Part shown: positions 1,753 through 28,315 of the stretch, one piece after another
Layout: each line of letters begins with the position of its first letter
Position numbering within the stretch: position 1 is the first letter of the stretch
Source of the DNA: Candidatus Binatus sp.
GTDB lineage: Bacteria; Desulfobacterota; Binatia; Binatales; Binataceae
Assembly: GCF_030646925.1 (NCBI RefSeq)
Contig: NZ_JAUSKL010000078.1
Location: 1-64,000, forward strand
Direction: 5' to 3'
DNA length: 64,000 nt
Translations under genes and position numbers: made by a program
Notes under the pieces: model-generated
What the model saw: only the letters and a program-made list of their open reading frames with translations
Database searches by the model: none
Told to the model about the DNA's origin: nothing

Positions 1753-2642
1753 TTGATGCGCCGTCCCGTCTCGAGTGCAGCACGGGCCGCAGTCAGTTCC
1801 TTGAGTCTGGCGGGATCGACCTTGGGATAAGCTGGTTTCAGTTCTTCGATTGCACCGATAATTGCCTCCGCCACCACCAATCTGGTGAACCATTTGTTGT
1901 CGGCGGGAACGACATACCAGGGCGCGTGGGGAGTGGCGGTGTTTTCGATCATCTCCTGGTAGGCATGCATGTAATCGTTCCATCGTTCGCGCTCGGAGAG
2001 GTCGCCGATCGAGAATTTCCAGTACCGAGCGGGATCGTTGAGGCGTTTCAAAAATCGCTTTTTCTGCTCGGCTTTCGAGATGTTCAGAAAGAACTTCAGG
2101 ATCGCGACGCCGTTGCGGTTCAGATGGCGCTCAAAAGTATTGATATCCTCGAACCGCTCTTTCCAGATCGATTTGCTGACCAGCGACGGCGGCAGGTGCT
2201 CACGCCTGAGAAGTTCCGAATGAACGCGGACGATTAGCACCTCTTCGTAGTAGGAACGATTGAAAATCCCGATGCGGCCCTGCTCTGGAACATACTTGGC
2301 GGTGCGCCACAAAAAATCATGATCGAGTTCCTCCACGGACGGCTGCTTGAACGAATAGACCTGGCATCCCTGCGGATTCACCCCGGACATCACGTGCTTG
2401 ATCGCGCCGTCCTTGCCGGCTGCATCCATCGCCTGAAAAATCACCAGCACCGCCCATTGATTTTGCGCGTAGAGTTTTTCCTGCAACTCGACCAGGCGCT
2501 CGATGCCGCGCGTCAGCATCTCCTCGCCATGTTTCTCTGATTCGAAATGGGCAGTGTCTTTCGGGTCCCAGTCTTTCAGGCGAAACTTGCGCCCGTGATC
2601 TACCAGGTAGCGTTTTGCAAGATTCGGCAATTGGAAGCGCAC
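1749..2642 (-). CDS. ppk2: Polyphosphate kinase 2 family protein
   Basis: PPK2 enzymes move phosphate between polyphosphate and nucleotides (ADP/GDP or AMP) in the cytoplasm. The protein is 297 residues, normal for single-domain PPK2. The Walker A region is AMDAAGKDGA (residues 71-80), followed by HVMSGVNPQGCQVYSF, the lid/Walker B region FNRSYYEEVL and a C-terminal DLSERERWNDYMHAYQEM, all typical. GTG is the first start; AAAGGAG sits only one base upstream, so the TTG four codons later is an alternative. It overlaps the MFS gene. The Pho genes about 5 kb away make a phosphate-storage role attractive, but this is inference. Confidence 0.92.
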   Translation of the reverse strand: MRFQLPNLAKRYLVDHGRKFRLKDWDPKDTAHFESEKHGEEMLTRGIERLVELQEKLYAQNQWAVLVIFQAMDAAGKDGAIKHVMSGVNPQGCQVYSFKQPSVEELDHDFLWRTAKYVPEQGRIGIFNRSYYEEVLIVRVHSELLRREHLPPSLVSKSIWKERFEDINTFERHLNRNGVAILKFFLNISKAEQKKRFLKRLNDPARYWKFSIGDLSERERWNDYMHAYQEMIENTATPHAPWYVVPADNKWFTRLVVAEAIIGAIEELKPAYPKVDPARLKELTAARAALETGRRIK

Positions 2643-3117
2643 TCCTTTAACTCGGCCCGCGATAAATCGAGCATGCGAATCGCATCACGCGCACATGCGT
2701 AGTCGATGGTTACACTACGGCGCGCACGCTAGTCGAGCGTGACGACTCTGAATTGACGCGCGTCCGGCGCGATACTGCTCACGCGAGACACATCCCGCCA
2801 AGAGCGCAAAGAGCCCGCCAGAGCGCCAGGCATCGCGTGCGGCCAGCAATTCCCGGCCACTCCGCTCGGCAAAGCAACCTGTTCATCTGAGCGATTCGCC
2901 TGAGCTGTACAGATTACGTACATTCTGTTGTTTTTCTGCACGTAATTTCAAGTCTAGACGCCGTACGATTCCATCCTTCGCGAAATTGCACCTTCTTGAA
3001 GCCTCATATTTGCATTTTTATTGTTTGGCATGTTGTGTGCGTTTCTTTTGATTTTCAAGATGCTAATTGAATCATCACCAACCACAGTTTTGCACCACAA
3101 GGAGGTTGCAAACCGAG
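2643..3117. other. 475-base divergent intergenic region
   Basis: The region lies between divergent ppk2 and the TadE/G-like gene. Its right third is clearly AT-rich and contains a sigma-54-type promoter (listed separately). A 70-codon minus-strand frame at 2729-2941 has no recognisable features and was not called. No repeat or structured RNA was seen. Confidence 0.6.
3025..3040 (+). promoter_or_regulatory. Candidate sigma-54 (-24/-12) promoter
   Basis: TTGGCATGTTGTGTGC matches the sigma-54 consensus YTGGCACG-N4-TTGC well: GG and GC are separated by exactly ten bases, and only the -12 T and one -24 base differ. It lies about 78 bases before the ATG of the TadE/G-like gene and points at it. 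A sigma-54 activator gene lies immediately beyond that gene. Confidence 0.6.
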
Positions 3118-4249: not shown

Positions 4250-5782
4250 TCAAATACCCGATACTACAAATTTTCGCACCTGCGTCGGGGTATCTGCCAC
4301 TTTTTTCTCGCCGGCGCGCTTCAGGTAAGCATACAGCGTCGTCCGCGATACCCCCAGGATTTTTGCAGCTTGCACCTTGTTGCCGTTCGCGGCTTCGACG
4401 GCCTCGCGGACGGCGTCTTCGCGCAGTTCCGCCAGGATGCCGTTGCTTGAACCGGTGGCTGATCCGAGCTTCTCAGGATGGCCGGGCCGGGTGGCGGAAG
4501 GAGCTTGGCCGGAGGATATCTCCCTGGGCAAGTCCCTGACCCGAATCTGGCGATGTTTGCCAAAAACGATCGCTCCTTCGATCACGTTCGCGAGCTCGCG
4601 CACGTTTCCGGGCCACGGATAGGCGGTCAAAACCGCTAGCGCTCTCGGCGAGACTCCTTCGACCCGCATCGAGCGCCGGACCTGCTGCCCAAACAGCGCG
4701 ATGAAATGATCGACGAGGATCGGGATGTCTTCCGGCCGCGTCCGCAGCGGAGGTATCTCGAGCCGGCAGGCCTGCAGCCGGTAATACAGATCCTTCCGGA
4801 GCGCGCCCGCCGCGGCCGCTGCCTCCGGGTCAAGATTGGTCGAAGCAATCACGCTCGCATCGACTGGCATCTCACGGTTCCCACCCACCGGACGCGCGGC
4901 TTTTTCCTGCAGGACGCGAAGCAACTTGCTTTGTCCATCGACGCTCATTTCGGTTATTTCATCGAGGAACAAGGTGCCGCCGCTGGCTTCCTGGAAGAGG
5001 CCATGCTTGGCCGCGTTGGCGCCGCTGAACGCGCCTTTTACGTAGCCGAAGAGTTCGCTCTCGATGAGATCCTTCGGGATGGCGGCGCAATTCACTGCGA
5101 TAAATGGACTGCCCGCGGGCCGCGACACTTCGTGGATCGCATGCGCCACCCACTCTTTGCCCGTGCCCGTCTCGCCCACGATCAACACGATCGCGCCCGA
5201 CGCGGCGACCGATTCGATCCGGTCGTAGAGTTCGAACATGACCGCGCTTTTGCCGACCAAGCCGTGGAAGTTTCCGCCGGGCCTGCCCGGCGTGGCGGGC
5301 GCGTCGTCATCGAGCAAATGAATCCGTGGTTTCACCCGCACCGACCACCATTTGTGATACGACAGCTCGAGGCAGATTCCGGCGAAACGCACCAGTCGAT
5401 CGAACACGGCAGCGATAGCGGTCGGCATTTTTTCAGGCCGCTCCTCCAACACCATCTGCCGCACGATTCCCCAGAACGAATCGGTGAAGGCCAGCAACGA
5501 GCCGAGTGGCACGGCTCTTCTCGCGGAAATCCTGCCGACCGATTCCACCTCGGCCTGGTACCCGGCGATGTTCTTTTGCAGCAGGTATCGGAGCGCGGCC
5601 GCGGGCGTGCGCGTCAACACGTCGTCGGCTTCTGTCTTTGGGATCGTCCGCAAGATGTCTGGGTGCTGCGCGACCCACTCGATCCAGCGATGGGTGAGTT
5701 CGTCGGCGCGCGACACCACGATTTCCAACACGGGCCGCAGATCGTCGAGGTCGCGGTCCGAAATCATGAAGCGTTCGCGCAT
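4250..5782 (-). CDS. Sigma-54-dependent transcriptional activator
   Basis: About 510 residues. Residues 1-150 form an all-helical sensor-like domain resembling RsbR-type N-terminal domains (weak assignment). The AAA+ sigma-54 interaction domain follows, with Walker A GETGTGKE, the sigma-54 contact loop as GAFSGA (GAFTGA variant), Walker B GGTLFLDEI and the arginine-finger region. The C-terminus is a Fis-type helix-turn-helix (NKVQAAKILGVSRTTLYAYL). No receiver domain is present, so it is probably not a two-component regulator. It converges on the TadE/G-like gene, which carries a sigma-54-type promoter and is the obvious candidate target. Two ATGs 15 bases apart are possible starts; the first is used. 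Confidence 0.9.
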   Translation of the reverse strand: MRERFMISDRDLDDLRPVLEIVVSRADELTHRWIEWVAQHPDILRTIPKTEADDVLTRTPAAALRYLLQKNIAGYQAEVESVGRISARRAVPLGSLLAFTDSFWGIVRQMVLEERPEKMPTAIAAVFDRLVRFAGICLELSYHKWWSVRVKPRIHLLDDDAPATPGRPGGNFHGLVGKSAVMFELYDRIESVAASGAIVLIVGETGTGKEWVAHAIHEVSRPAGSPFIAVNCAAIPKDLIESELFGYVKGAFSGANAAKHGLFQEASGGTLFLDEITEMSVDGQSKLLRVLQEKAARPVGGNREMPVDASVIASTNLDPEAAAAAGALRKDLYYRLQACRLEIPPLRTRPEDIPILVDHFIALFGQQVRRSMRVEGVSPRALAVLTAYPWPGNVRELANVIEGAIVFGKHRQIRVRDLPREISSGQAPSATRPGHPEKLGSATGSSNGILAELREDAVREAVEAANGNKVQAAKILGVSRTTLYAYLKRAGEKKVADTPTQVRKFVVSGI

Positions 5783-14454: not shown

Positions 14455-14754
14455 ATGGCTGAAAGCACCCGCATCACGCTCGAACAGGTAAGACACGTGG
14501 CGCGCCTCGCGCGGCTCGAATTGTCGAGCATCGAGGAGGAACGATTGCGCGCCGACATGGATGAGATGCTCGCTTACGTCGCCAAGCTGAACGAACTGGA
14601 TACCGCCGACGTGCCGCCGACCGCGCAGGTCGGCGAGGCCGGCACTCCGATGCGCGACGACGAAGTGACTAGCGCGCCGGCCGCCGAACAGATGCTCGCG
14701 AATGCGCCGTCGCGCGAGCGCGATTATTTCAAAGTGCCGAAAATAATTGAATAG
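14455..14754 (+). CDS. gatC: Asp/Glu-tRNA amidotransferase subunit C
   Basis: 99 residues, full family length, with [13 protein letters not shown] near the N-terminus and MRDDEVT in the belt region that wraps GatA. It stabilises the GatCAB complex, which converts misacylated Asp-tRNA(Asn) and/or Glu-tRNA(Gln). First gene of gatCAB. Confidence 0.95.
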
Positions 14755-14788
14755 GCGTTCGCGCGAGAGAGATGAGACTGTTTTGTCG

Positions 14789-16249
14789 ATGCATTCAGAA
14801 TTGAACAAACTAACGATCGCAGACGCGGCGGCGATGCTCCGCAAGGGCGAGGTCACCTCGCTCGAGTTGACGCGCGCTTGCCTCGATCGGATCAAGGCGA
14901 TTGAGCCCAGGCTCAACGCGTTCATCACGGTTTGCGAAAATGAAGCGATCGAGCAGGCGCATGCGGCCGACCAGCGCCTCAAATCTGGCGACGCGCCCGC
15001 GCTCTGCGGAATCCCGCTCGGCATCAAGGACATCTACGCGACGAAAGGAGTGCTGACTACTTGCGCGTCGCGAATCCTGGGCAATTTCGTGCCGCCGTTC
15101 GACGCGACCGTGATCGCGAAGTTGCGCGCCGAGGGCGCCGTGTTCGTCGGAAAAACGAACATGGACGAATTCGCGATGGGCTCCTCGACCGAAAATTCGG
15201 CCTTTGGCCCGACGCTCAATCCGCATGATCTCGAGCGCGTGGCCGGCGGCTCGTCGGGCGGGTCGGCGGCGGCGGTCGCGGCGCACGAATGCCTCGGCTC
15301 GCTCGGCACCGACACCGGCGGATCGATTCGCGAGCCCGCTTCGTTTTGCGGCGTGGTCGGAATCAAGCCGACGTACAGCCGCGTCAGCCGCTACGGCGTG
15401 ATCGCGTATGCGTCGTCGCTCGATCAGGTTGGTCCGTTCGCGAAATCGGTGCGCGACGCGGCGATAATCCTGCGCACGCTGGCCGGCAAGGATCCCAACG
15501 ATTCGACTTGCTCGGCGCGCGCCGTTCCGGATTACGAACAGGCGCTCACTGGCGACGTGAAGGGACTCAGAATCGGGGTGCCGAAGGAATATTTCGTCGA
15601 AGGGATGCAGCCGGAAGTCGAGAAATCGGTGCGCGCGGCGATCAAGAATTTCGAATCGCTCGGCGCGACGACGGTCGAAGTATCGCTGCCGCATAGCAGC
15701 TACGCGATCGCGGCGTATTACCTGGTCGCGACGGCCGAAGCGAGCGCGAATCTCGCGCGTTATGACGGCATCCGCTACGGCCTTCGCGTCAAGGCCGAGG
15801 ATCATATCGATTTGTACAATCAAACACGGGCGGAAGGATTTGGCGCGGAAGTGAAGCGTCGAATCATGCTCGGGACGTTCGCACTATCGGCGGGCTACTA
15901 CGACGCATACTATTTGAAGGGCCAGAAAGTCCGCACGCTTATTCGGCGCGATTTCGACCGCGCATTCGAGAAATGCGATCTGATCGTGACTCCGGTCGCG
16001 CCGACGACCGCATTCAAGCTCGGCGAAAAAATGAACGACCCGCTCACGATGTACCTGCCCGACATCTTCACCATCTCGGTGAACCTGGCCGGCTTGCCCG
16101 GGATGTCGATGCCGTGCGGCTACGATGAAAACAATCTGCCGATTGGCGTGCAGCTAATCGGGCCGCCATTCAGCGAGGAAGCGATTTTGCGCGCGGGTGA
16201 CGCGCTGGAACGAATGGGGACTTTTGCGCCGCGCGGAATCGCGGTTTGA
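14789..16249 (+). CDS. gatA: Asp/Glu-tRNA amidotransferase subunit A
   Basis: 486 residues, the normal length when started at this ATG (upstream TTG codons overlap gatC and are less likely). Amidase-signature triad is visible: Lys80 in GIKD, cis-Ser155 in GGSSGGS and Ser179 in TDTGGSI. It releases ammonia from glutamine for GatB. Confidence 0.97.
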
Positions 16250-16257
16250 CGATTGCC

Positions 16258-17697
16258 ATGAATATCGAAGCCTACGAAGCGATTATCGGACTCGAAGTCC
16301 ATACCCATCTGCTGACTCTGTCGAAGCTTTTCTGCGGATGCTCGACGCGGTTCGGCGCGGGTCCGAATGCCAACGTGTGTCCGCGTTGCATGGGGATGCC
16401 CGGGGTGTTGCCGGTACTCAATCGCCGCGTGGTGGAATTAGCTATTCGCACCGGACTGGCTACTCACTGCACAATCGCGCCCTACTCTATTTTCGATCGA
16501 AAGAGCTATTTCTACCCCGACCTGCCGAAAGGCTATCAGATTACTCAGTATGAAACTCCGATCTGCAAAGGTGGCTATATTGACTTGCCGTCCGACGGCG
16601 ACGGGCAGCCGCGGCGAATCAGGCTGACGCGAATCCATATCGAGGAAGACGCCGGCAAAAATATTCATGCGGCCGGCGCCAGCCTGATCGATTTCAATCG
16701 CTCTGGAGTGCCGCTGATCGAAATCGTGAGCGAGCCCGACCTGCGGTCGTCCGCCGACGCGGGCGCGTATCTGCGCCAACTGCGCGCGATCCTGCGCTAT
16801 GTCGATGCGTCCGACGGCAAGATGGAGGAAGGTAGCTTTCGCTGCGATTGCAACGTCTCGGTGCGGAAGCGTGGTGCAACTGAATTCGGCACGCGGACTG
16901 AAATCAAGAATCTCAACTCGTTCCGCTTCGTCGAAAATGCAATCGATCACGAAGTCGCGCGCCAAATTGAGATTCTCGAAGCGGGCGGCAGAGTACCGCA
17001 GGAAACTCTCTTGTGGGATCCGGCCCGCAACGAGACCCGCCTGATGCGATCGAAAGAGTATGCGAATGACTATCGCTATTTTCCCGAGCCAGACTTGCCG
17101 CCGCTGATCGTCGAGGATGCGATGGTCGAGCAGATTCGCGCCACGATGCCCGAATTGCCGGCCGATCGCCGCGCTCGCTACGTCCGCGAGCTGTCGCTCA
17201 CGGACTACGAGGCCGGCGTGCTCACCTCGGATCGCGACGTTGCTGATTATTTCGAGGCGACGTTGCCAGGACTTAAAAATCGCAAGGCCGCGGCGAACTG
17301 GGTAATGACCGAAGTACTCAGAGTGGTGCGCGAGTCGGGCAAATCGATCAATGACGCGGCGCCGCTCGCGGCCGAAATCGGCGCGCTGCTGCGCATGGTC
17401 GAAGATCAGAAAATCAGCTTCAACGCGGCCAAAACCGCGTTCGCCGCGATGGTGAAATCCGGCAAGAGCGCCGACACGACAGTCGCGGAACTCGGCCTTG
17501 CGCAGGTATCGGATGAAAGCGCGATCGCGGCGGCGTGCGAAAAAATAATCGCCGCGGAACCCGCCAAGCTCGCCGAGTATCGCGCCGGGCGCGACAAGTT
17601 ATTCGGATTCTTTGTCGGCCAGGTGATGAAAGCGATGGGCGGCAAGGCCAATCCCAAAGTGATCAACGATATCCTGAAACAGAAGCTCGCCGGCTGA
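16258..17697 (+). CDS. gatB: Asp/Glu-tRNA amidotransferase subunit B
   Basis: 479 residues. Starts with YEAIIGLEVHTHLL; zinc ligands are Cys26, Cys28, Cys41 and Cys44 (CGC and CPRC). Kinase-like transamidation core, then the helical YqeY-like tRNA-binding tail ending in GGKANPKVINDILKQKL. The ATG is eight bases after the gatA stop. With no glnS or asnS visible here, an indirect Gln or Asn route is likely but unproven. Confidence 0.97.
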   Translation: MNIEAYEAIIGLEVHTHLLTLSKLFCGCSTRFGAGPNANVCPRCMGMPGVLPVLNRRVVELAIRTGLATHCTIAPYSIFDRKSYFYPDLPKGYQITQYETPICKGGYIDLPSDGDGQPRRIRLTRIHIEEDAGKNIHAAGASLIDFNRSGVPLIEIVSEPDLRSSADAGAYLRQLRAILRYVDASDGKMEEGSFRCDCNVSVRKRGATEFGTRTEIKNLNSFRFVENAIDHEVARQIEILEAGGRVPQETLLWDPARNETRLMRSKEYANDYRYFPEPDLPPLIVEDAMVEQIRATMPELPADRRARYVRELSLTDYEAGVLTSDRDVADYFEATLPGLKNRKAAANWVMTEVLRVVRESGKSINDAAPLAAEIGALLRMVEDQKISFNAAKTAFAAMVKSGKSADTTVAELGLAQVSDESAIAAACEKIIAAEPAKLAEYRAGRDKLFGFFVGQVMKAMGGKANPKVINDILKQKLAG

Positions 17698-17702
17698 TTT
17701 CC

Positions 17703-18821
17703 TCAGTTCAGTCCGAAGGCGCGCGCCGGATTGTCCCACAAAATCTTGCGCTTGCTCGCGTCAGGGATCGGTTGCTTCAGTACCGCGTCGATACCCCACG
17801 GAAAAGTTCCATCCGGATGCGGATAGTCAGTATCCCACAGGAAGTTGTCATCGCCGACTATGTCTATTGCAGCTTTCATAGTCGGTTCGTCGCCGCGGAA
17901 CGCGACGAAGAAGTTGTTTTTGAAATACTCAGTTGGCCGTTTGGTCAAATACTCATGTTCGGCGTTGCCGCTAAAGTTCCAATGCTGTTCCATCCGCTGC
18001 AGCCAATATGGAACCCACCCTCCGTCGGCCTCAACCTGTACTACTTTCAGCTTGGGATATTTTTCGATGACGCCATACCAAATGAGGCCCACCATCGCGG
18101 CCATCGCTTCGAAGGGATGCGACAGGATGTGGCCGGAGACGTGGGTATCCATGCGGTCGCCGAAAGATTCGACCGAAGCCGATGCGGAGTCGTGAGTCGA
18201 AATCGGACGGCCGAGCTTTTCGACCTCGGCCCAGAGCGGCAGATAGTCGTCATGAAAAAGCGCGCGCCCTCGCACCGGATTGGGACGAACATAAAAGCTG
18301 ACCGCGCCGTTTTTTGCAGTCCGATGCGCTTCCTTGATGGCTTCCTCGACGTCCTGCATCGGTAGAATCGAGGCAAATTTGACGCGCCCGTTGGTCTTCG
18401 AGCAGAAATCCGCGCTCCAATCGTTGTAGGCGGCGCAGCAAGCGGCGAGCAGTTTGGGATCGCGGAATTCGCGGCCCATCATCTGGCCGGCGGCGGTAGG
18501 ATAGACGATCTGCACGTCCACACCCTGCTCGTCCATGTCCATCAAGCGGCTTTCAGGACTGAACCCGGTTTTGGCGGCGCGCTCGAAGCGTTTCATCGCG
18601 CGGCGGACCGACTCGAGGAAAGCCGGCGCCGCCATCGGGTACTTCCCCTTTTCGCGGGTGAACGGTTCGCCTTCGACCAGGAAAGTGCGGCGTCCCGATT
18701 CCGCGGCGATACCCAATCGCGGGGCCTGAGATTTGTATTTTTCATCGATATACTTCTCGAATACGTACTCAGGTTCCATCAAGTGAGTATCCGCATCGAC
18801 GATCCTGTATCCGTCTTTCAT
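17703..18821 (-). CDS. Amidohydrolase 2 family metal-dependent hydrolase
   Basis: 372 residues of the amidohydrolase-2 (ACMSD-like decarboxylase/hydrolase) family. Metal-site motifs seen: VDADTHLMEP near the N-terminus, SHPFEAMAAM in the middle and FLWDTDYPHPDGTFPW near the C-terminus. Substrate unknown; such proteins often act on aromatic or cyclic acids. It follows the alcohol dehydrogenase with the same orientation, so may share a transcript with it and the citrate-synthase fusion. Confidence 0.85.
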   Translation of the reverse strand: MKDGYRIVDADTHLMEPEYVFEKYIDEKYKSQAPRLGIAAESGRRTFLVEGEPFTREKGKYPMAAPAFLESVRRAMKRFERAAKTGFSPESRLMDMDEQGVDVQIVYPTAAGQMMGREFRDPKLLAACCAAYNDWSADFCSKTNGRVKFASILPMQDVEEAIKEAHRTAKNGAVSFYVRPNPVRGRALFHDDYLPLWAEVEKLGRPISTHDSASASVESFGDRMDTHVSGHILSHPFEAMAAMVGLIWYGVIEKYPKLKVVQVEADGGWVPYWLQRMEQHWNFSGNAEHEYLTKRPTEYFKNNFFVAFRGDEPTMKAAIDIVGDDNFLWDTDYPHPDGTFPWGIDAVLKQPIPDASKRKILWDNPARAFGLN

Positions 18822-18866: not shown

Positions 18867-19883
18867 CTAATCGGGAATTATCAATGCCTTGACGCCGCGA
18901 CGCTCGCGAAGCAGCGAAAAAGCTTCTAATCCGCGCGAGATGCCGTAGCGATGCGTGATCATCGGGCGAAGATCGATCGCGCCCGACGACACCATCGCAA
19001 TCGCGCGGCGCCAGGTCTCGGGCGTGCGGATGCGCGAGTTGATGATCGTCACGCCGTGAAAGAACAGCGCGCGCAGTTCGGCCGAGCTGACGTCGCGCGC
19101 GGGCCATCCGACTTCGATCAACTGGCCGCCGCGGCGCAACAATTCGCGCGGCGAATCGATCATGCCGCATGCGTCGAAGACCACGTCGGCGCCGTCGGCA
19201 GGCATCATCGCGCGCACCTGCTCGATCCAGTCGGCCGCGCCGGTAGCGACCGTCTTGAAACCCATCTCGCGCGCCAGGTCCAGCCGCGTGCGATCTTCGG
19301 CGAGACCCGTGATCACGATCGACGTGACGCCGAGCGCGCGCGCGGAGAGCGCGATACTGAGTCCGATCGGCCCGGGACCTTCGATCACCGCGCTATCTCC
19401 GGGCATCAGGCAGGATTGCTCGACGGCGTGCAGCCCGGTGCCGAACATCTCGAGCAGCGCGGCCTGCTCCATGTCCATCGTTTTAGGAACGAGATGCGCG
19501 TTGCCGGTCGGCGCGATCGTGAATTCAGCGAATGCACCCGAAAGCGTGGTCGGCGACGCGCACAAGTGGAAGCGGCCGGCGCGGCACGGACCGCATCGCC
19601 CGCAATGCCCGAACGGATCGAGCGCGACGCGGTCGCCGACCTTGAAGCCGCTCACGCCGATGCCAAGTTCGACAACTTCGCCGGCGGGCTCGTGCCCCAG
19701 CACGAACGGAATGCGCGCGACCATCCGGTTCGCGCCGAGTTCCCAATCGACGATGTGCAGGTCGGAGCCGCAAACGCCGCACGCGCCGACGCGGACGAGG
19801 AGTTCGCCCTCGCCGACTTCAGGAATTGGAGTATCGATCACTTCGACGCCGGGCGCGGGACTGGTCTTCGCGATTGCTTTCAT
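18867..19883 (-). CDS. Zinc-dependent alcohol dehydrogenase (MDR family)
   Basis: 338 residues. Catalytic zinc: Cys in GACGVCGSD and His in VLGHEPAGEV. Structural zinc: four Cys in HCGRCGPCRAGRFHLC. The nucleotide fold has the less usual EGPGPIGLS in place of GxGxxG with Ala. Closest in pattern to threonine/sorbitol dehydrogenase-like enzymes; substrate unknown. Lies between the HTH-citrate synthase gene (75 bases upstream) and the amidohydrolase. Confidence 0.88.
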   Translation of the reverse strand: MKAIAKTSPAPGVEVIDTPIPEVGEGELLVRVGACGVCGSDLHIVDWELGANRMVARIPFVLGHEPAGEVVELGIGVSGFKVGDRVALDPFGHCGRCGPCRAGRFHLCASPTTLSGAFAEFTIAPTGNAHLVPKTMDMEQAALLEMFGTGLHAVEQSCLMPGDSAVIEGPGPIGLSIALSARALGVTSIVITGLAEDRTRLDLAREMGFKTVATGAADWIEQVRAMMPADGADVVFDACGMIDSPRELLRRGGQLIEVGWPARDVSSAELRALFFHGVTIINSRIRTPETWRRAIAMVSSGAIDLRPMITHRYGISRGLEAFSLLRERRGVKALIIPD

Positions 19884-19957: not shown

Positions 19958-21244
19958 CTACTGCCAATGCCGCGTCGACGCGCCGCGATAACGCATGCGC
20001 GGACGAATCAATCGGTTGTCGGAGTATTGTTCGAGCGCGTGCGCGATCCATCCCGACGCGCGGCCGATCGCGAAGATCGCGGCGGGCAGTGATTGCTGGA
20101 ACCCGAGCATCCGCGCGCATACGGTCAGATAAAAATCGAGATTGGGCCGGAGCTGATCGCGCTTCCACACGGCGGCCTCGACCTTGAGTGCAGTTTCGAA
20201 CAGGCGGCGTCCGCGCTGTCGAGCGATCGAGCGCGCGACTTCGCGCAACAGTACGGCGCGCGGATCGCCGTCGGGATAGATCGCGTGACCGAAGCCGGGC
20301 GCCAGGCGATGCTCGCGCGTGAACCCGGCGAGGCATTCGTCGACGCGCGCGCCCGACTCGAGTTCGGTGAACATCGCTTCGATCCGATCGCAGGCGCCGC
20401 CATGGATCGGCCCCGAGAGCGAGCACAAAGCGGCGAGCACGGAAGCAAACAAATCCGCGCCGGTGCTCGCGACCACGCGCGCGGCGAAGGTCGAAGCGTT
20501 GAGTTCGTGCTCGGCGCAGGCGATCAGCACGCGATCGAGCGCCGCGACTTCCCATTCCATGCCAGTAGATGAGGACACCAGCCCCAGCAGGCGTCCGGCC
20601 ATCCCGGTTCCGCGCGGCGTGCTTCCCGTTGGCGGATTGCCGAGCGCGAGCGGCAACTGGCTGATGATCAATTTCGCGCGATCGATTCGAGTGCGCGGCG
20701 GCTGCCGGCGATCCCACGCCGCGAGACTCGGCATCACCGCGGCGATTCGCAAGAGCGGCGGCGCGTCCTCGCCGGTGGCGCTGAGTGCGGCGGCAACCGA
20801 GGGCGGCATCTGCGCTCCTTCGATTTCAGCGCGCAGCGCGGCGATCTCCTCGGCCACGGGACGCTCGCCGCTCCACAGCAGCAGGCATACTTCCTCGAAC
20901 GACCCACGCTCGACGACCTCTTCGATCGGATAGCCGCGATAACTCAGCTTGTCGTCGATAATCGAACTGACGGCGGATTCGGCGACGATTACGCCGGGCG
21001 CGCCGTCCTCGACGTTGCGCGGCTGGGCGACGGTGACCCAGCTCGACGCGGCGGGCAGGCTGCGGCCGCGGCGGCCGCGCTCGGTCGAGACGACGCCGCG
21101 CAGCGCTTCGATATCGGCGCGGCGATAGAGCGCCTGGCGGCCGACTTTGCGGCGATAGCTTTTCAGCCAGCCGCGGCTGACGTAGGCGTAGAGCGTGCCG
21201 AGCTTGACGCCGAGGTGTTTCGCGGCTTCGGTGGCAGTCAGCAT
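19958..21244 (-). CDS. Citrate synthase-like protein with N-terminal helix-turn-helix
   Basis: 428 residues. Residues 1-50 form an excisionase/MerR-like DNA-binding helix-turn-helix (TATEAAKHLGVKLGTLYAYV). From about residue 75 the protein is a citrate synthase: SYRGYPIEEV, catalytic His in AEHELNAST, second His in SGPIHGGA, GFGHAIYPDGDPRA, Asp in PNLDFYL and C-terminal RPRMRYRG. The Arg usual after GFGH is Ala here, so substrate or activity may differ (2-methylcitrate or related). The ATG is chosen as the HTH start; upstream GTG/TTG codons exist. Probably heads a transcript with the alcohol dehydrogenase. Confidence 0.85.
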   Translation of the reverse strand: MLTATEAAKHLGVKLGTLYAYVSRGWLKSYRRKVGRQALYRRADIEALRGVVSTERGRRGRSLPAASSWVTVAQPRNVEDGAPGVIVAESAVSSIIDDKLSYRGYPIEEVVERGSFEEVCLLLWSGERPVAEEIAALRAEIEGAQMPPSVAAALSATGEDAPPLLRIAAVMPSLAAWDRRQPPRTRIDRAKLIISQLPLALGNPPTGSTPRGTGMAGRLLGLVSSSTGMEWEVAALDRVLIACAEHELNASTFAARVVASTGADLFASVLAALCSLSGPIHGGACDRIEAMFTELESGARVDECLAGFTREHRLAPGFGHAIYPDGDPRAVLLREVARSIARQRGRRLFETALKVEAAVWKRDQLRPNLDFYLTVCARMLGFQQSLPAAIFAIGRASGWIAHALEQYSDNRLIRPRMRYRGASTRHWQ

Positions 21245-21385
21245 CGGGGCGCGGTCGGTTTTGCGAATCGCCACGTCGAAATCACGCCATGCGCGACGGG
21301 CAGTCGTCAAGGCATCGTCAACATATCAACTTGCGTCAAGATACGAGCAGTTATATACAGTCAAGTTCAAGGCAGGCGCATCCGG

Positions 21386-22180
21386 ATGGGTTCGGCTGAA
21401 GTTCGATTCAAGGAGCTGCGCGCCGATTTCGGCAAAACGGCTGAGGACTACGGACGGCATCGCGCCGGATTTCCCGACGAATTCTTCGAGCGGCTCGCCT
21501 CGATGGGGATCGTGCGAGCCGGGATGCGCGCGCTGGATCTCGGCACCGGGACCGGCACTATCGCGCGCGGACTAGCGCTTCGCGGATGCGAAGTGACCGC
21601 GCTCGATCGATCGGAACCGCTGATGGAGCAGGCGCGCGAGCTCGATCGCGAGGCTGGCGTCGTCGTAAATTACGTCGTCGCGGCGGCCGAAGAAACTGGT
21701 CTCCCTGCCGCGAGCTTCGATGTGGTCACAGCGGGGCAATGCTGGCATTGGTTCGATCGTCCGCGCGCGGCCGCCGAAGCGCGGCGTCTGCTGAAACCGG
21801 GCGGAAGATTGGTGATCGGGCATTTCGACTGGATTCCAATTCCGGGCAACATGGTCGATGCGACCGAAAAACTGATCGAGAAGCACAATCCAAAGTGGAA
21901 GCTCGGCGGCGGAGTCGGGATTTATCCGCAATGGATGGCGGGCCTCGCGCAGGCGGGATTCAAAAATCTCGAGACATTCTCGTTCGATATCGATGCGATT
22001 TACACGCACGAGGCGTGGCGCGGCAGGATTCGCGCGAGCGCGGGCGTGGGCGCGAGCCTGACGCCGGAGGCGGTCGCGGCGTTCGACGACGAGTTGCGCG
22101 CGATGCTGAACGATCGATTTGCGGAAGACCCGATGCGCGTGCCGCATCGAGTGTTCGCGGCGATCGGCACCGCGCCCTGA
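21386..22180 (+). CDS. Class I SAM-dependent methyltransferase
   Basis: 264 residues. SAM-binding motif I ALDLGTGTGTIARGLA, acidic motif II ALDRSE, and motif post-I/IV VTAGQCWHWFD; LKPGGRLVIGHFDW follows. Pattern of methyltransferase domain 11/25 proteins acting on small molecules; substrate unknown. Divergent from the citrate synthase fusion, with about 140 bases between starts containing short CTTG/CAAG inverted repeats. Confidence 0.85.
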   Translation: MGSAEVRFKELRADFGKTAEDYGRHRAGFPDEFFERLASMGIVRAGMRALDLGTGTGTIARGLALRGCEVTALDRSEPLMEQARELDREAGVVVNYVVAAAEETGLPAASFDVVTAGQCWHWFDRPRAAAEARRLLKPGGRLVIGHFDWIPIPGNMVDATEKLIEKHNPKWKLGGGVGIYPQWMAGLAQAGFKNLETFSFDIDAIYTHEAWRGRIRASAGVGASLTPEAVAAFDDELRAMLNDRFAEDPMRVPHRVFAAIGTAP

Positions 22181-23325: not shown

Positions 23326-24396
23326 ATGGATTTTGGCACCCTGATTTTCACCAAGCCGGAGCGCGCGATCACCGAGGTCAAGTTCGCCGAGGAACGCGGC
23401 TTCACGCACGCCTGGATACCCGATTCGCACATGATCTGGGGCGATACCTACGCGTGCATGGCGCTGGCGGCGGTCAATACGAAATCGATCAAGCTCGGAA
23501 CCGGCGTCGCGATCGCATCGAATCGCATCGCACCGGTGACGGCGCATTCGATCGCGACGATCAATCAGCTCGCGCCGGGGCGCACGATCCTGGGTTTCGG
23601 CACGGGGCATACGGGGCGCCGCGTGATGGGACTGCCGCCGGTCAAGCAAAGCGATTTTCGCGAGCAGGTGCGCGTGATCCACGATCTCCTGCACGAGGGC
23701 GAGGCGACCTACAACACCGAGGGGCTGAGCCGCAAGATTCGTTTTTTGAATCGCGATCGCCGCTTCATCAACATTGACGATCGCATTCCATTCTACATCG
23801 CGGCGAATGGGCCGAAGACGCTCGCGCTCGCGGGTGAGTTTGGCGACGGCGTGATCACCACTGGCATCACCGACACGCAGCGAATCGCGAACGTGCGGCG
23901 GCACGTGGAAGCCGGCGCCTCGAAGGTCGGACGCAAGGCGGACAAGATGCCGATCGTATCGCTGACCCACGTATGCGTGCTGCGGCCGGGCGAGAAGCTC
24001 GATTCGCCGCGCGTGAAGGCGATGACCGGTCATTGGGTGATGGCGAGTTTTCATGCGATCGCCGCGGGCTACGCGGGACGCGACTATCTGCCGGCGACGG
24101 TGAAGGCGGTTTACGACGAGTACGAGAAATACGTCGCAAACATGAAGACGCCGGCATCCGAGCGATACCTGGAATTGCACGTGGGGCATTGCGCATTCGT
24201 GGCGCCGGAAGAGATGCGCTTCGTCACGCCGGAGACGATCGCGGCGAGCACGATAATCGGGCCACGCGAGGAGGTCGTCGAGCGGCTGCGAGAGTTGGAG
24301 CGCGCGGGACTGACGCAGGTGTTCGTCAATCCGCCGATGGACGGCTTCAACGACAGCATCGACGAGATCTCTCGCGACGTAATCGCAAGGATGTAG
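23326..24396 (+). CDS. LLM-class (luciferase-like) oxidoreductase
   Basis: 356 residues of the bacterial luciferase-like, flavin/F420-dependent family: MDFGTLIFTKPE strand, KLGTGVAIASNR, APGRTILGFGTGHTG and IPFYIAANGPKTLALAGEFGDG. Similar to methylene-H4MPT reductase-like and F420-dependent enzymes; cofactor and substrate cannot be told. AGAGGT lies before the ATG. The stop is followed at about 20 bases by composite repeat copy A. Confidence 0.88.
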   Translation: MDFGTLIFTKPERAITEVKFAEERGFTHAWIPDSHMIWGDTYACMALAAVNTKSIKLGTGVAIASNRIAPVTAHSIATINQLAPGRTILGFGTGHTGRRVMGLPPVKQSDFREQVRVIHDLLHEGEATYNTEGLSRKIRFLNRDRRFINIDDRIPFYIAANGPKTLALAGEFGDGVITTGITDTQRIANVRRHVEAGASKVGRKADKMPIVSLTHVCVLRPGEKLDSPRVKAMTGHWVMASFHAIAAGYAGRDYLPATVKAVYDEYEKYVANMKTPASERYLELHVGHCAFVAPEEMRFVTPETIAASTIIGPREEVVERLRELERAGLTQVFVNPPMDGFNDSIDEISRDVIARM

Positions 24397-27304: not shown

Positions 27305-28315
27305 CTATCGGCGGCGTAATTTCGGCAACACGTCGGATGCGAACCGCTCGAGCGAGCGCATCGCCTTGGCAGGGTCGAGCCCGGGCAATTGCATGTTGAG
27401 GATCAGCTCGGTCATCGGTGTCGCGTCGATGATTTCGCTGAGCCGCTCTGCGACGAAATCCGGCGGGCCGAGCACCGCGGCGCGTTTGATTTTTTCGGGA
27501 TCGGGAAGAATCCAATCCTGATTCGCCGCGAGATTCGCCGACAGCCATTTGCCATACAGCTCAGCTTGATACATCGCGGCATCGCGGATGTCATCCCACG
27601 CCTCGTCGGCGCTGTCTGCAATATAAAGCAGGCGGCTATTGACGATGCTGAAGCCGTCGGGATCCTTGCCGAGGTTGCGCAACGCTTCGCGATAGAGCTG
27701 GACCTCGCGCGCGCCGAGATTGCACGCGAACGAAAGTCCGAGTCCCGCGCCGCGCTGGATCGCCTTGTCGGTCATCCCGCCCCACAAAAGTTCAGGATGC
27801 GGCCGGCTCACCGGGCGCGGAAGCACGCGCGCGTCGCGGAACTTGAAATGCTTGCCCTCGAAGCTGAACGTTTCGCCGGTCCACGCGCGCTTCATGATTT
27901 CGATCGTTTCGAGCGTGCGGCTGAGGCGGGTTTTTTGCGATACCTGGAAGCCGTCGAATTCCTCGGCGCGATAGCCCATCCCGATTCCGAGGCGGAGGCG
28001 GCCATGCGAGATCACGTCGATAACTGCGGCGTCTTCGGCGAGGCGGAGCGGATGGTAGAACGGCGCAAGCAGGACGTAGGTGCCGAGCGTGACGCGCTTG
28101 GTGCGCGCGGCGATCGCGGCGAGGGTGGGCATCACGGCGGAGAGGTAGCCGTCGTCGGTAAAGTGATGCTCGGTGAGCCAGATCGAGTCGAGGCCGGCGC
28201 TTTCGGCGAAGTCGATTTGCCGGAACATCGCGTCGTAGAAATCCTGGAAGCTGATGCGCGATTCGTGCGGATTGCGGAAATCGAGCATGTAGCCGAACTT
28301 GATTGGCTTCGTCAT
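27305..28315 (-). CDS. LLM-class (luciferase-like) oxidoreductase
   Basis: 336 residues: KFGYMLDFRNP, SIWLTEHHFTDDGYL, VTLGTYVLLAPFYHPLRLAED, GRLRLGIGMGYRAEEFDGF and PELLWGGMTDKAI, all typical of flavin-dependent LLM monooxygenases. It differs clearly from the other two LLM proteins here, so these are not recent duplicates. Substrate unknown. Confidence 0.88.
   Translation of the reverse strand: MTKPIKFGYMLDFRNPHESRISFQDFYDAMFRQIDFAESAGLDSIWLTEHHFTDDGYLSAVMPTLAAIAARTKRVTLGTYVLLAPFYHPLRLAEDAAVIDVISHGRLRLGIGMGYRAEEFDGFQVSQKTRLSRTLETIEIMKRAWTGETFSFEGKHFKFRDARVLPRPVSRPHPELLWGGMTDKAIQRGAGLGLSFACNLGAREVQLYREALRNLGKDPDGFSIVNSRLLYIADSADEAWDDIRDAAMYQAELYGKWLSANLAANQDWILPDPEKIKRAAVLGPPDFVAERLSEIIDATPMTELILNMQLPGLDPAKAMRSLERFASDVLPKLRRR

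Follow-up and report, generated by a model that had tools for sequence, protein, structure and literature searches.

A helix-turn-helix–citrate synthase fusion from Candidatus Binatus and its clade of putative enzyme-derived regulators with a conserved upstream DNA site

Gene locus and domain organization

The window (the whole stretch of 64,000 nucleotides that was analysed, from Candidatus Binatus sp.) carries on its minus strand a gene for a helix-turn-helix–citrate synthase fusion (HTH-CS; positions 19958–21274, stop codon TAG). The open reading frame 19958–21244 encodes 428 residues counted from ATG 21244. An in-frame GTG or ATG lies 10–17 codons 5′ of this ATG in 22 of 22 close relatives, including the window itself, where it is GTG 21274; the full product therefore probably has 438 residues. 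We refer to this branch as Binatota, since NCBI taxonomy places Candidatus Binataceae within Candidatus Binatota.

Pfam finds both HTH_17 (E = 1.8e-9, residues 1–47) and Citrate_synt (E = 3.4e-86, residues 83–416) above their cut-offs, which bears out the initial annotation of an HTH of about 50 residues ahead of a full citrate synthase chain. The AlphaFold2 model (built on 51 aligned sequences, of which four lack the HTH) has a mean pLDDT of 86, with a confidently predicted citrate synthase body. The head is predicted to be a winged helix-turn-helix domain of helix–helix–wing–helix order (residues 1–52, 21089–21244, minus strand; HTH_17, PF12728), with helices at 4–11, 15–23 and 42–52, a strand at 38–40 and pLDDT of about 72–91. 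The putative recognition helix TLYAYVSRG (residues 17–25, 21170–21196, minus strand) is identical in all 22 Binatota relatives. A linker (residues 53–85, 20990–21088, minus strand), probably flexible given a pLDDT below 50 over residues 54–85, leads to the citrate synthase domain (residues 86–428, 19961–20989, minus strand; PF00285, E = 3.4e-86). When the HTH was folded alone from its single sequence it gave one helix; this run was discarded as uninformative beside the head of the full-length model. A chance or mis-called fusion is ruled out by the same architecture in 22 of 41 genomes of the window's order, the window's included, at 66–100% identity.

The neighbours are as first annotated, with Pfam matches for each. 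A SAM-dependent methyltransferase gene is divergent to the fusion (21386–22180, plus strand; PF08241, 1.5e-24), and downstream on the same strand as the fusion lie a zinc alcohol dehydrogenase (18867–19883, minus strand; PF08240, 2e-28) and an amidohydrolase of the Amidohydro_2 type (17703–18821, minus strand; PF04909, 1.6e-35). The order HTH-CS, alcohol dehydrogenase, amidohydrolase, all on one strand, recurs in 15 of 20 Binatota stretches; one of the remaining five ends within the gene. A divergent methyltransferase is present in eight of the 20 and also at L103. In five, the closest match on the divergent side is a luciferase-like monooxygenase gene. No second citrate synthase was found adjoining HTH-CS in the five full-length Binatota loci among the best 80 matches (see below). 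The window itself has a luciferase-like monooxygenase-type gene at 23326–24396 (PF00296 match, F420-dependent models below their cut-offs), of a kind found near HTH-CS in many Binatota stretches, and a second one, named from its translation, at 27305–28315. Genes resembling gatC, gatA and gatB, again read from translations, run in one direction at 14455–17697 and are kept in several Binatota stretches.

The 111 bp between the divergent HTH-CS and methyltransferase genes (21275–21385) are a candidate control region. An alignment of 23 upstream regions reveals a −35-like TTGACG box (21305–21310, minus strand), which is followed by a ATGGCGTGAT block (21281–21290, minus strand), six bases before GTG 21274, that is kept in many Binatota relatives. 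In strict form, TTGAC followed at 10–16 bases by ATGGCGT(G/C)AT occurs in 15 of 22 Binatota loci. Together the two elements could form a promoter for the gene itself, whose leader would then be very short or lacking; alternatively, ATGGCGTGAT may be a tiny upstream reading frame (ATG GCG TGA). The kept upstream start and this block together suggest that translation probably begins at GTG 21274 on an almost leaderless transcript. By eye, we also noted a 14-base element TTGACGCAAGTTGA (complement TCAACTTGCGTCAA; 21326–21339), with similar forms in methyltransferase-linked Binatota, that may be a diverged operator or equally the −35 region of the methyltransferase promoter, and TATATA at 21352–21357, a possible −10 region of the same promoter.

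Citrate synthase domain

The body of the window protein belongs to the citrate synthase superfamily by its match to PF00285 (289.9 bits against a cut-off of 27, model positions 3–357 of 357) and by its residues. His246, His281, His320, Arg329, Asp370, Arg395 and Arg414 are all present and comprise the catalytic His, His and Asp and the oxaloacetate-binding His and Arg residues, with roles assigned by the residue numbering used for the pig and E. coli enzymes. In an alignment of 79 rows, among the best 80 matches, all of these are invariant except His320, which is kept in 77 rows. With the active-site residues invariant or nearly so, the pocket looks able to bind citrate synthase ligands.

As initially annotated, the key His and Asp motifs (His246, His281, His320 and Asp370) are retained and GFGH is followed by Ala rather than Arg, in the active-site segment GFGHAIYPDGDPR (His320, Ala321, Arg329; 20258–20296, minus strand). 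Conservation of this Ala holds within the Binatota branch, where 19 of 21 readable sequences have it (one of the 22 is truncated by its contig), and does not extend to the 79-row alignment among the best 80 matches, where the position is Pro in 40 rows, Gln in 20, Ala in 6, Arg in 6, His in 3, Thr in 2 and another residue in two. Solved PrpC proteins have Ala or Pro at the same place (GFGHAIY in 6s6f and GFGHPVY in 3o8j). Since the Ala is kept in the branch and is found in the 2-methylcitrate synthase 6s6f, it is not a lesion; equating it with loss of catalysis is rejected on the solved structures. The earlier argument from Arg-to-Ala to an altered substrate is not supported in that form either, given the same structures and the retention of the catalytic residues checked.

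A 2-methylcitrate-like substrate for the window protein is nevertheless possible. The best solved match found by Foldseek is PrpC 6s6f of Pseudomonas aeruginosa (E = 2.6e-18, TM score 0.83 on the target). The score against TIGR01800 (2-methylcitrate synthase/citrate synthase II) was 259.2 bits, below the cut-off of 421.3, and none of the NCBIfam citrate synthase models that the window protein matched was over its cut-off. A second citrate synthase, of the GltA type, is encoded on another contig of the window's genome.

Relatives and phylogeny

Relatives were collected as 79 loci from named genomes, among the best 80 matches to exact peptide patterns. Selection by such patterns, with the best 80 kept, biases the conservation figures of this sample upward, and class-wide genome draws (190 alphaproteobacterial genomes and 274 of the Ralstonia class) served as a check on it. 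Six of the loci (L003–L008) are close to the window, one of them (L007) a contig-edge fragment titled Terriglobia, and four (L013, L015, L019 and L040) are synthases without an HTH. The remainder are HTH-citrate synthases of about 35% identity, mostly from Alpha- and Betaproteobacteria, and they include one Chloroflexi MAG (L011), one Planctomycetota MAG (L034) and two Myxococcota loci (L050 and L053). A further genome of the window's order (G026) encodes, at locus L104, a protein of about 40% identity that is placed in the other branch. Among 297 genomes of the phylum, matches that include the head were found only in the window's family (three in the draw, E up to 1e-48); eight other matches start after residue 70, and the seven of these that could be extracted in frame keep GFGHR.

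In trees of the synthase domain alone, 26 rows of the non-Binatota branch (the operator branch, named for the DNA site described below) and 12 of the 22 Binatota sequences grouped together, apart from the HTH-less synthases, with 100/100 support, on chosen rows, with the root assumed among ordinary synthases and the wrong-frame row L157 ignored. The HTH-citrate synthases, the window protein included, thus form one clade, which extends across five phyla and is compatible with a single origin of the fusion. Two irregular copies were noted: the Rhodospirillales HTH-CS frame of L022, from a MAG, has an in-frame stop at position 5390 that is either an assembly error or a broken copy, and a 289-residue open frame in Ralstonia pickettii (G044:C1:39364-40086) gives a split citrate synthase match.

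The helix-turn-helix head

The head is HTH_17 or excisionase-like, with 38.1 bits against a cut-off of 27 for HTH_17 and the predicted winged fold. It falls just below the cut-off of the NCBIfam excisionase model TIGR01764 (26.9 against 28.8 bits) and, taken alone, exceeds that of MerR_1 (24.9 against 21.6). The protein as a whole is not of the MerR family, which combines an HTH with a coiled-coil dimerization helix and an effector domain; its body is a citrate synthase.

Binatota sequences agree best in the HTH, with a mean pairwise identity of 0.87, against 0.71 in the linker and 0.69 in the citrate synthase domain. In five Binatota pairs, dN/dS is 0.03–0.13 for the HTH and 0.11–0.25 for the synthase domain; the closest pair has the higher value in its head (0.129 against 0.107). 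By these estimates selection on the head is strong, yet not always stronger than on the synthase domain. The columns of the recognition helix are 95–100% conserved over 75 rows of the pattern-picked sample among the best 80 matches, and TLYAYVSRG is the commonest form in the operator branch. Among the held-out alphaproteobacterial sequences, LY-YVSR is kept in all 19 readable heads (of 20) and the exact TLYAYVSRG in 13 of the 19. HTH domains whose targets differ are not usually this uniform. The initial annotation had named beforehand an HTH too degenerate in relatives as grounds for abandoning the regulator idea. With the helix identical in every Binatota relative and its core in every readable alphaproteobacterial head, this objection fails, and sequence comparison indicates that the head is not decaying.

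A conserved DNA site upstream of the relatives

In the operator branch a site of the form TCAANNTTGA-N7..10-TCAA lies directly 5′ of the HTH-CS gene. It was found within 120 bases upstream in 63 of the 68 non-Binatota loci among the best 80 matches (N9 in 60 and N8 in three), a figure that does not count independent events, as the loci are related. These 68 and five Binatota loci make up the 73 that were counted; of the 79, L007 and L058 were excluded for want of upstream DNA and the four HTH-less loci for want of a head. Dinucleotide shuffles of the 68 upstream regions gave a mean of 0.02 and a maximum of one region of 68 with the site, and there are just four further plus-strand matches across 702,598 bases of the same loci. 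The five loci that lack the full site are L009, L022, L049 and the two from Myxococcota, L050 and L053. A fuller consensus reads about aTATtGTCAATCTTGATTaaAtTgATCAATAT, and the conserved operator candidate is some 30 bp long. The full site is seen in Pseudomonadota, in the Chloroflexi and Planctomycetota MAGs and in one genome of the window's own family, that of L104, whose protein belongs to the other branch.

The held-out draws agree. HTH-CS is present in 20 of the 190 alphaproteobacterial genomes, and after removal of the seed and of one locus without upstream DNA, 14 of 18 loci carry the full site (one with N8 and one with N10), three have TCAANNTTGA alone and one has a near match by eye. 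In the Ralstonia class, three of 274 genomes have HTH-CS, and both that were not seeds carry the site, which brings the held-out total to 16 of 20 genomes. No CoA-transferase was found beside these two new Ralstonia-class loci.

A scan of 12 whole genomes gave 21 matches to the N9 form, nine of them at the known HTH-CS locus (one on the other strand), and in six of the 12 genomes its sole match is at the HTH-CS gene; the reversed pattern gave one match over all 12. Three genomes have no N9 match at the locus: those of L034 (an N8 site), of L050 and of the window. Six of the 12 off-locus matches were inspected, picked mostly for their likeness to the consensus. One lies nine bases 5′ of a second HTH-CS gene in Acidovorax soli (L186; G048:C2:767300-773300, gene at 1763–2926, minus strand), whose divergent neighbour reads, from its translation, like a D-2-hydroxyacid dehydrogenase. 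Another (L185; G048:C16:148300-154300, at about 3000) has a family III CoA-transferase gene on one side and a LysR gene on the other, with no HTH-CS found within those 6 kb, and is possibly a target in trans or a LysR site. The other four lie inside long open reading frames and look like chance; the matches at L186 and L185 also fell in mechanically called frames, which were set aside as overlapping real genes. In fourteen HTH-less synthase loci (76,648 bases, L157 and L013 left out), neither the full nor the half pattern was found.

The facing gene

At 98 loci the gene divergent to HTH-CS was classified: 69 have a citrate synthase there and 16 a CoA-transferase (PF02515), together 85 of 98. 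The remaining 13, which include five Binatota loci, have a gene of another kind or gave no clear call; one alphaproteobacterial locus is counted twice in these figures (as L024 and L132). The site goes with HTH-CS while the divergent gene varies. Divergent-type synthases (E up to 1e-60, at least 51% identity) occur in 15 of the 190 alphaproteobacterial genomes, all 15 of which have HTH-CS; three weaker matches (39%) are in genomes without a listed HTH-CS, and no site is present there.

These observations bear on the alternative that the protein works as an ordinary enzyme, its HTH-like head being vestigial or structural, and that the conserved site serves another regulator. The intact active site is what such an enzyme would have, and the window's own branch lacks a site of the operator type. 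We nonetheless find this explanation improbable, because within Binatota conservation is higher in the HTH than in the enzyme body, because HTH-CS genes of Pseudomonadota, of one Chloroflexi MAG, of one Planctomycetota MAG and of one genome of the window's family have the full site before them while the divergent gene varies, because a whole-genome match to the site led to a second HTH-CS gene, and because the fourteen loci of HTH-less synthases are without it.

The divergent synthase of L081 (3777–4937, minus strand) has as its best PDB match 2c6x (‘citrate synthase 1’, E = 8e-74), which we take to be Bacillus subtilis CitA. In both, the catalytic Asp is replaced by Glu, and this holds for 18 of 18 partner synthases in the tree set. 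The same 18 partners keep Arg after GFGH, and the HTH-CS rows keep the Asp and are mostly without the Arg; this complementary pattern might hint at mixed dimers.

Upstream region in the Binatota branch

Full and half patterns, as well as alignment, found the operator-branch site upstream in none of five Binatota loci. The full site occurs neither in the window nor in its whole genome, and the half pattern has a single match in the window, at 23768, which is outside the HTH-CS locus. The window protein is accordingly placed by sequence in a sister branch and is not an operator-type member. TTGA/TCAA tetramers are enriched in Binatota upstream DNA, with 33 against 9.5 in shuffles for nine methyltransferase-linked loci and 18 against 7.4 for thirteen other Binatota loci. 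None of 200 shuffles matched either count, although the sequences are related and the TTGACG box contributes part. We take the enrichment as a hint of a possible diverged operator.

Since the operator is absent from the Binatota branch and the recognition helix is identical there, regulation in this branch is something that we infer, and for the window protein we base this on the recognition helix, the clade and the genomic position. It could instead be that only the non-Binatota branch regulates, and that the Binatota head has another target or role, the protein being an enzyme of the alcohol dehydrogenase–amidohydrolase cluster. The surroundings do differ, with those two genes downstream in most Binatota stretches and no adjoining second citrate synthase in the five full-length loci, and the branch combines the missing site with a better-kept active site. 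Set against this, the commonest helix form of the operator branch is present in every Binatota sequence and the tetramers are enriched upstream, so that we think this division of the family unlikely.

Proposed mechanism

We favour as rather probable that HTH-CS is an enzyme-derived one-component transcription regulator, in which the HTH head is joined to a citrate synthase domain that acts as sensor and dimerizer in local self-control. The N-terminal winged helix-turn-helix would read half-sites of the TTGA/TCAA type, and the citrate synthase domain, attached by the flexible linker, would supply a dimer that carries two HTH heads. The preserved pocket may sense a ligand, either oxaloacetate with acyl-CoA or the product citrate or 2-methylcitrate, and the ligand-driven closing or opening of the synthase domain would then shift how the two heads sit on the DNA. 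In the relatives the protein would act just before its own gene, on itself and on the divergent gene, which in most cases encodes a second citrate synthase or a CoA-transferase. For the window's branch the predicted place of action is 21275–21385, and the targets would be the protein's own operon (HTH-CS, alcohol dehydrogenase and amidohydrolase) and the divergent methyltransferase. Predicted from sequence and models are DNA binding, what the dimer does, which ligand is sensed and in which direction control runs, as well as any regulation in Binatota.

The suggestion in the initial annotation of a metabolic sensor-regulator is thus well supported for the family, by the conserved site and recognition helix, and indirectly for the window's own branch. 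The observations on the window lead, by a route other than the Ala, to an enzyme-derived protein family that looks like regulators with a conserved operator. It is likely, in our estimate, that this is a transcription factor family of five phyla in which the citrate synthase fold senses oxaloacetate, acyl-CoA or (methyl)citrate, reads its own operator of about 30 bp and controls itself and a divergent acyl-CoA enzyme, with the window protein as the earliest-branching form, which retains an enzyme-like pocket.

Against a regulator stand the intact catalytic residues, which would be expected of a working enzyme. HTH-CS might therefore be a bifunctional trigger enzyme, with citrate or 2-methylcitrate synthase activity in addition to DNA binding, and with repression in the absence of its substrate. 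PutA is an enzyme that represses when its substrate is missing, and PutA and BirA are both trigger enzymes, metabolic enzymes with their own DNA-binding domain and established catalysis; their folds differ from that of HTH-CS, which is known here from sequence and models. In this direction point the nearest solved folds, which are 2-methylcitrate synthases, and the Binatota rows, which keep the catalytic and oxaloacetate-binding residues in 12 of 12 cases and likewise GFGH, Gly283 and Asn368, the latter three retained in fewer rows of the operator branch. In that branch the active site has drifted (Gly319 of GFGH is present in 18 of 26 rows), and a likely relative, Caulobacter CitC, showed no citrate synthase activity in an E. 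coli test (PMC7083601). We regard bifunctionality as doubtful on balance and retain the ligand-controlled regulator as our preferred reading.

Comparison with known systems

Citrate synthase is the entry enzyme of the Krebs cycle, and a family of this kind, if confirmed, would mean that genomes contain sensors so far overlooked, able perhaps to give a direct readout of oxaloacetate and acyl-CoA levels. PrpC and type II citrate synthases (PF00285) share with the window protein the fold, the active-site residues and Ala or Pro after GFGH (6s6f and 3o8j); the window protein differs in its additional N-terminal winged HTH and linker and in its tree position outside the HTH-less rows. The HTH domain is held in common with the MerR and excisionase families (PF13411, PF12728 and TIGR01764), but HTH-CS, unlike MerR, has a citrate synthase body in place of a coiled coil and effector domain. 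The closest parallel in design is MocR/GabR, in which a GntR HTH is fused to an aminotransferase domain to give ligand-controlled regulators (PMC5320631, PMC5734734). The order of HTH head, linker and enzyme body as sensory domain is shared; the MocR/GabR head and body are of families unrelated to those of HTH-CS and the proteins are PLP-dependent. Regulators made from enzymes are thus known (MocR, PutA), and in the open-licence PMC literature, judged mostly from listings, we found none made from citrate synthase and no description of the HTH-citrate synthase family as regulators.

Caulobacter crescentus is reported to have three citrate synthase genes, of which citB and citC (CCNA_03757 and CCNA_03758) adjoin by locus tag; CitB restores an E. 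coli gltA mutant and CitC, inactive as a citrate synthase in that host, does not (PMC7083601). A strain of Caulobacter NA1000 with both citB and citC deleted is available (PMC7083601). The same article uses the term ‘trigger enzyme’, and ‘helix-turn-helix’ and ‘HTH’ are absent from its main text. CitC, citrate-synthase-like as is the window protein, is probably the HTH-CS of a divergent pair, to judge from adjacency and non-complementation rather than from its sequence. A regulatory role, if true, could explain why citC failed as a citrate synthase in E. coli (PMC7083601). Plasmid records mostly label the fusion ‘citrate synthase family protein’, as for ATU_RS25370 of Agrobacterium fabrum C58, which is divergent to ATU_RS25365; in three other plasmid records the opposite gene is labelled ‘CoA transferase’.
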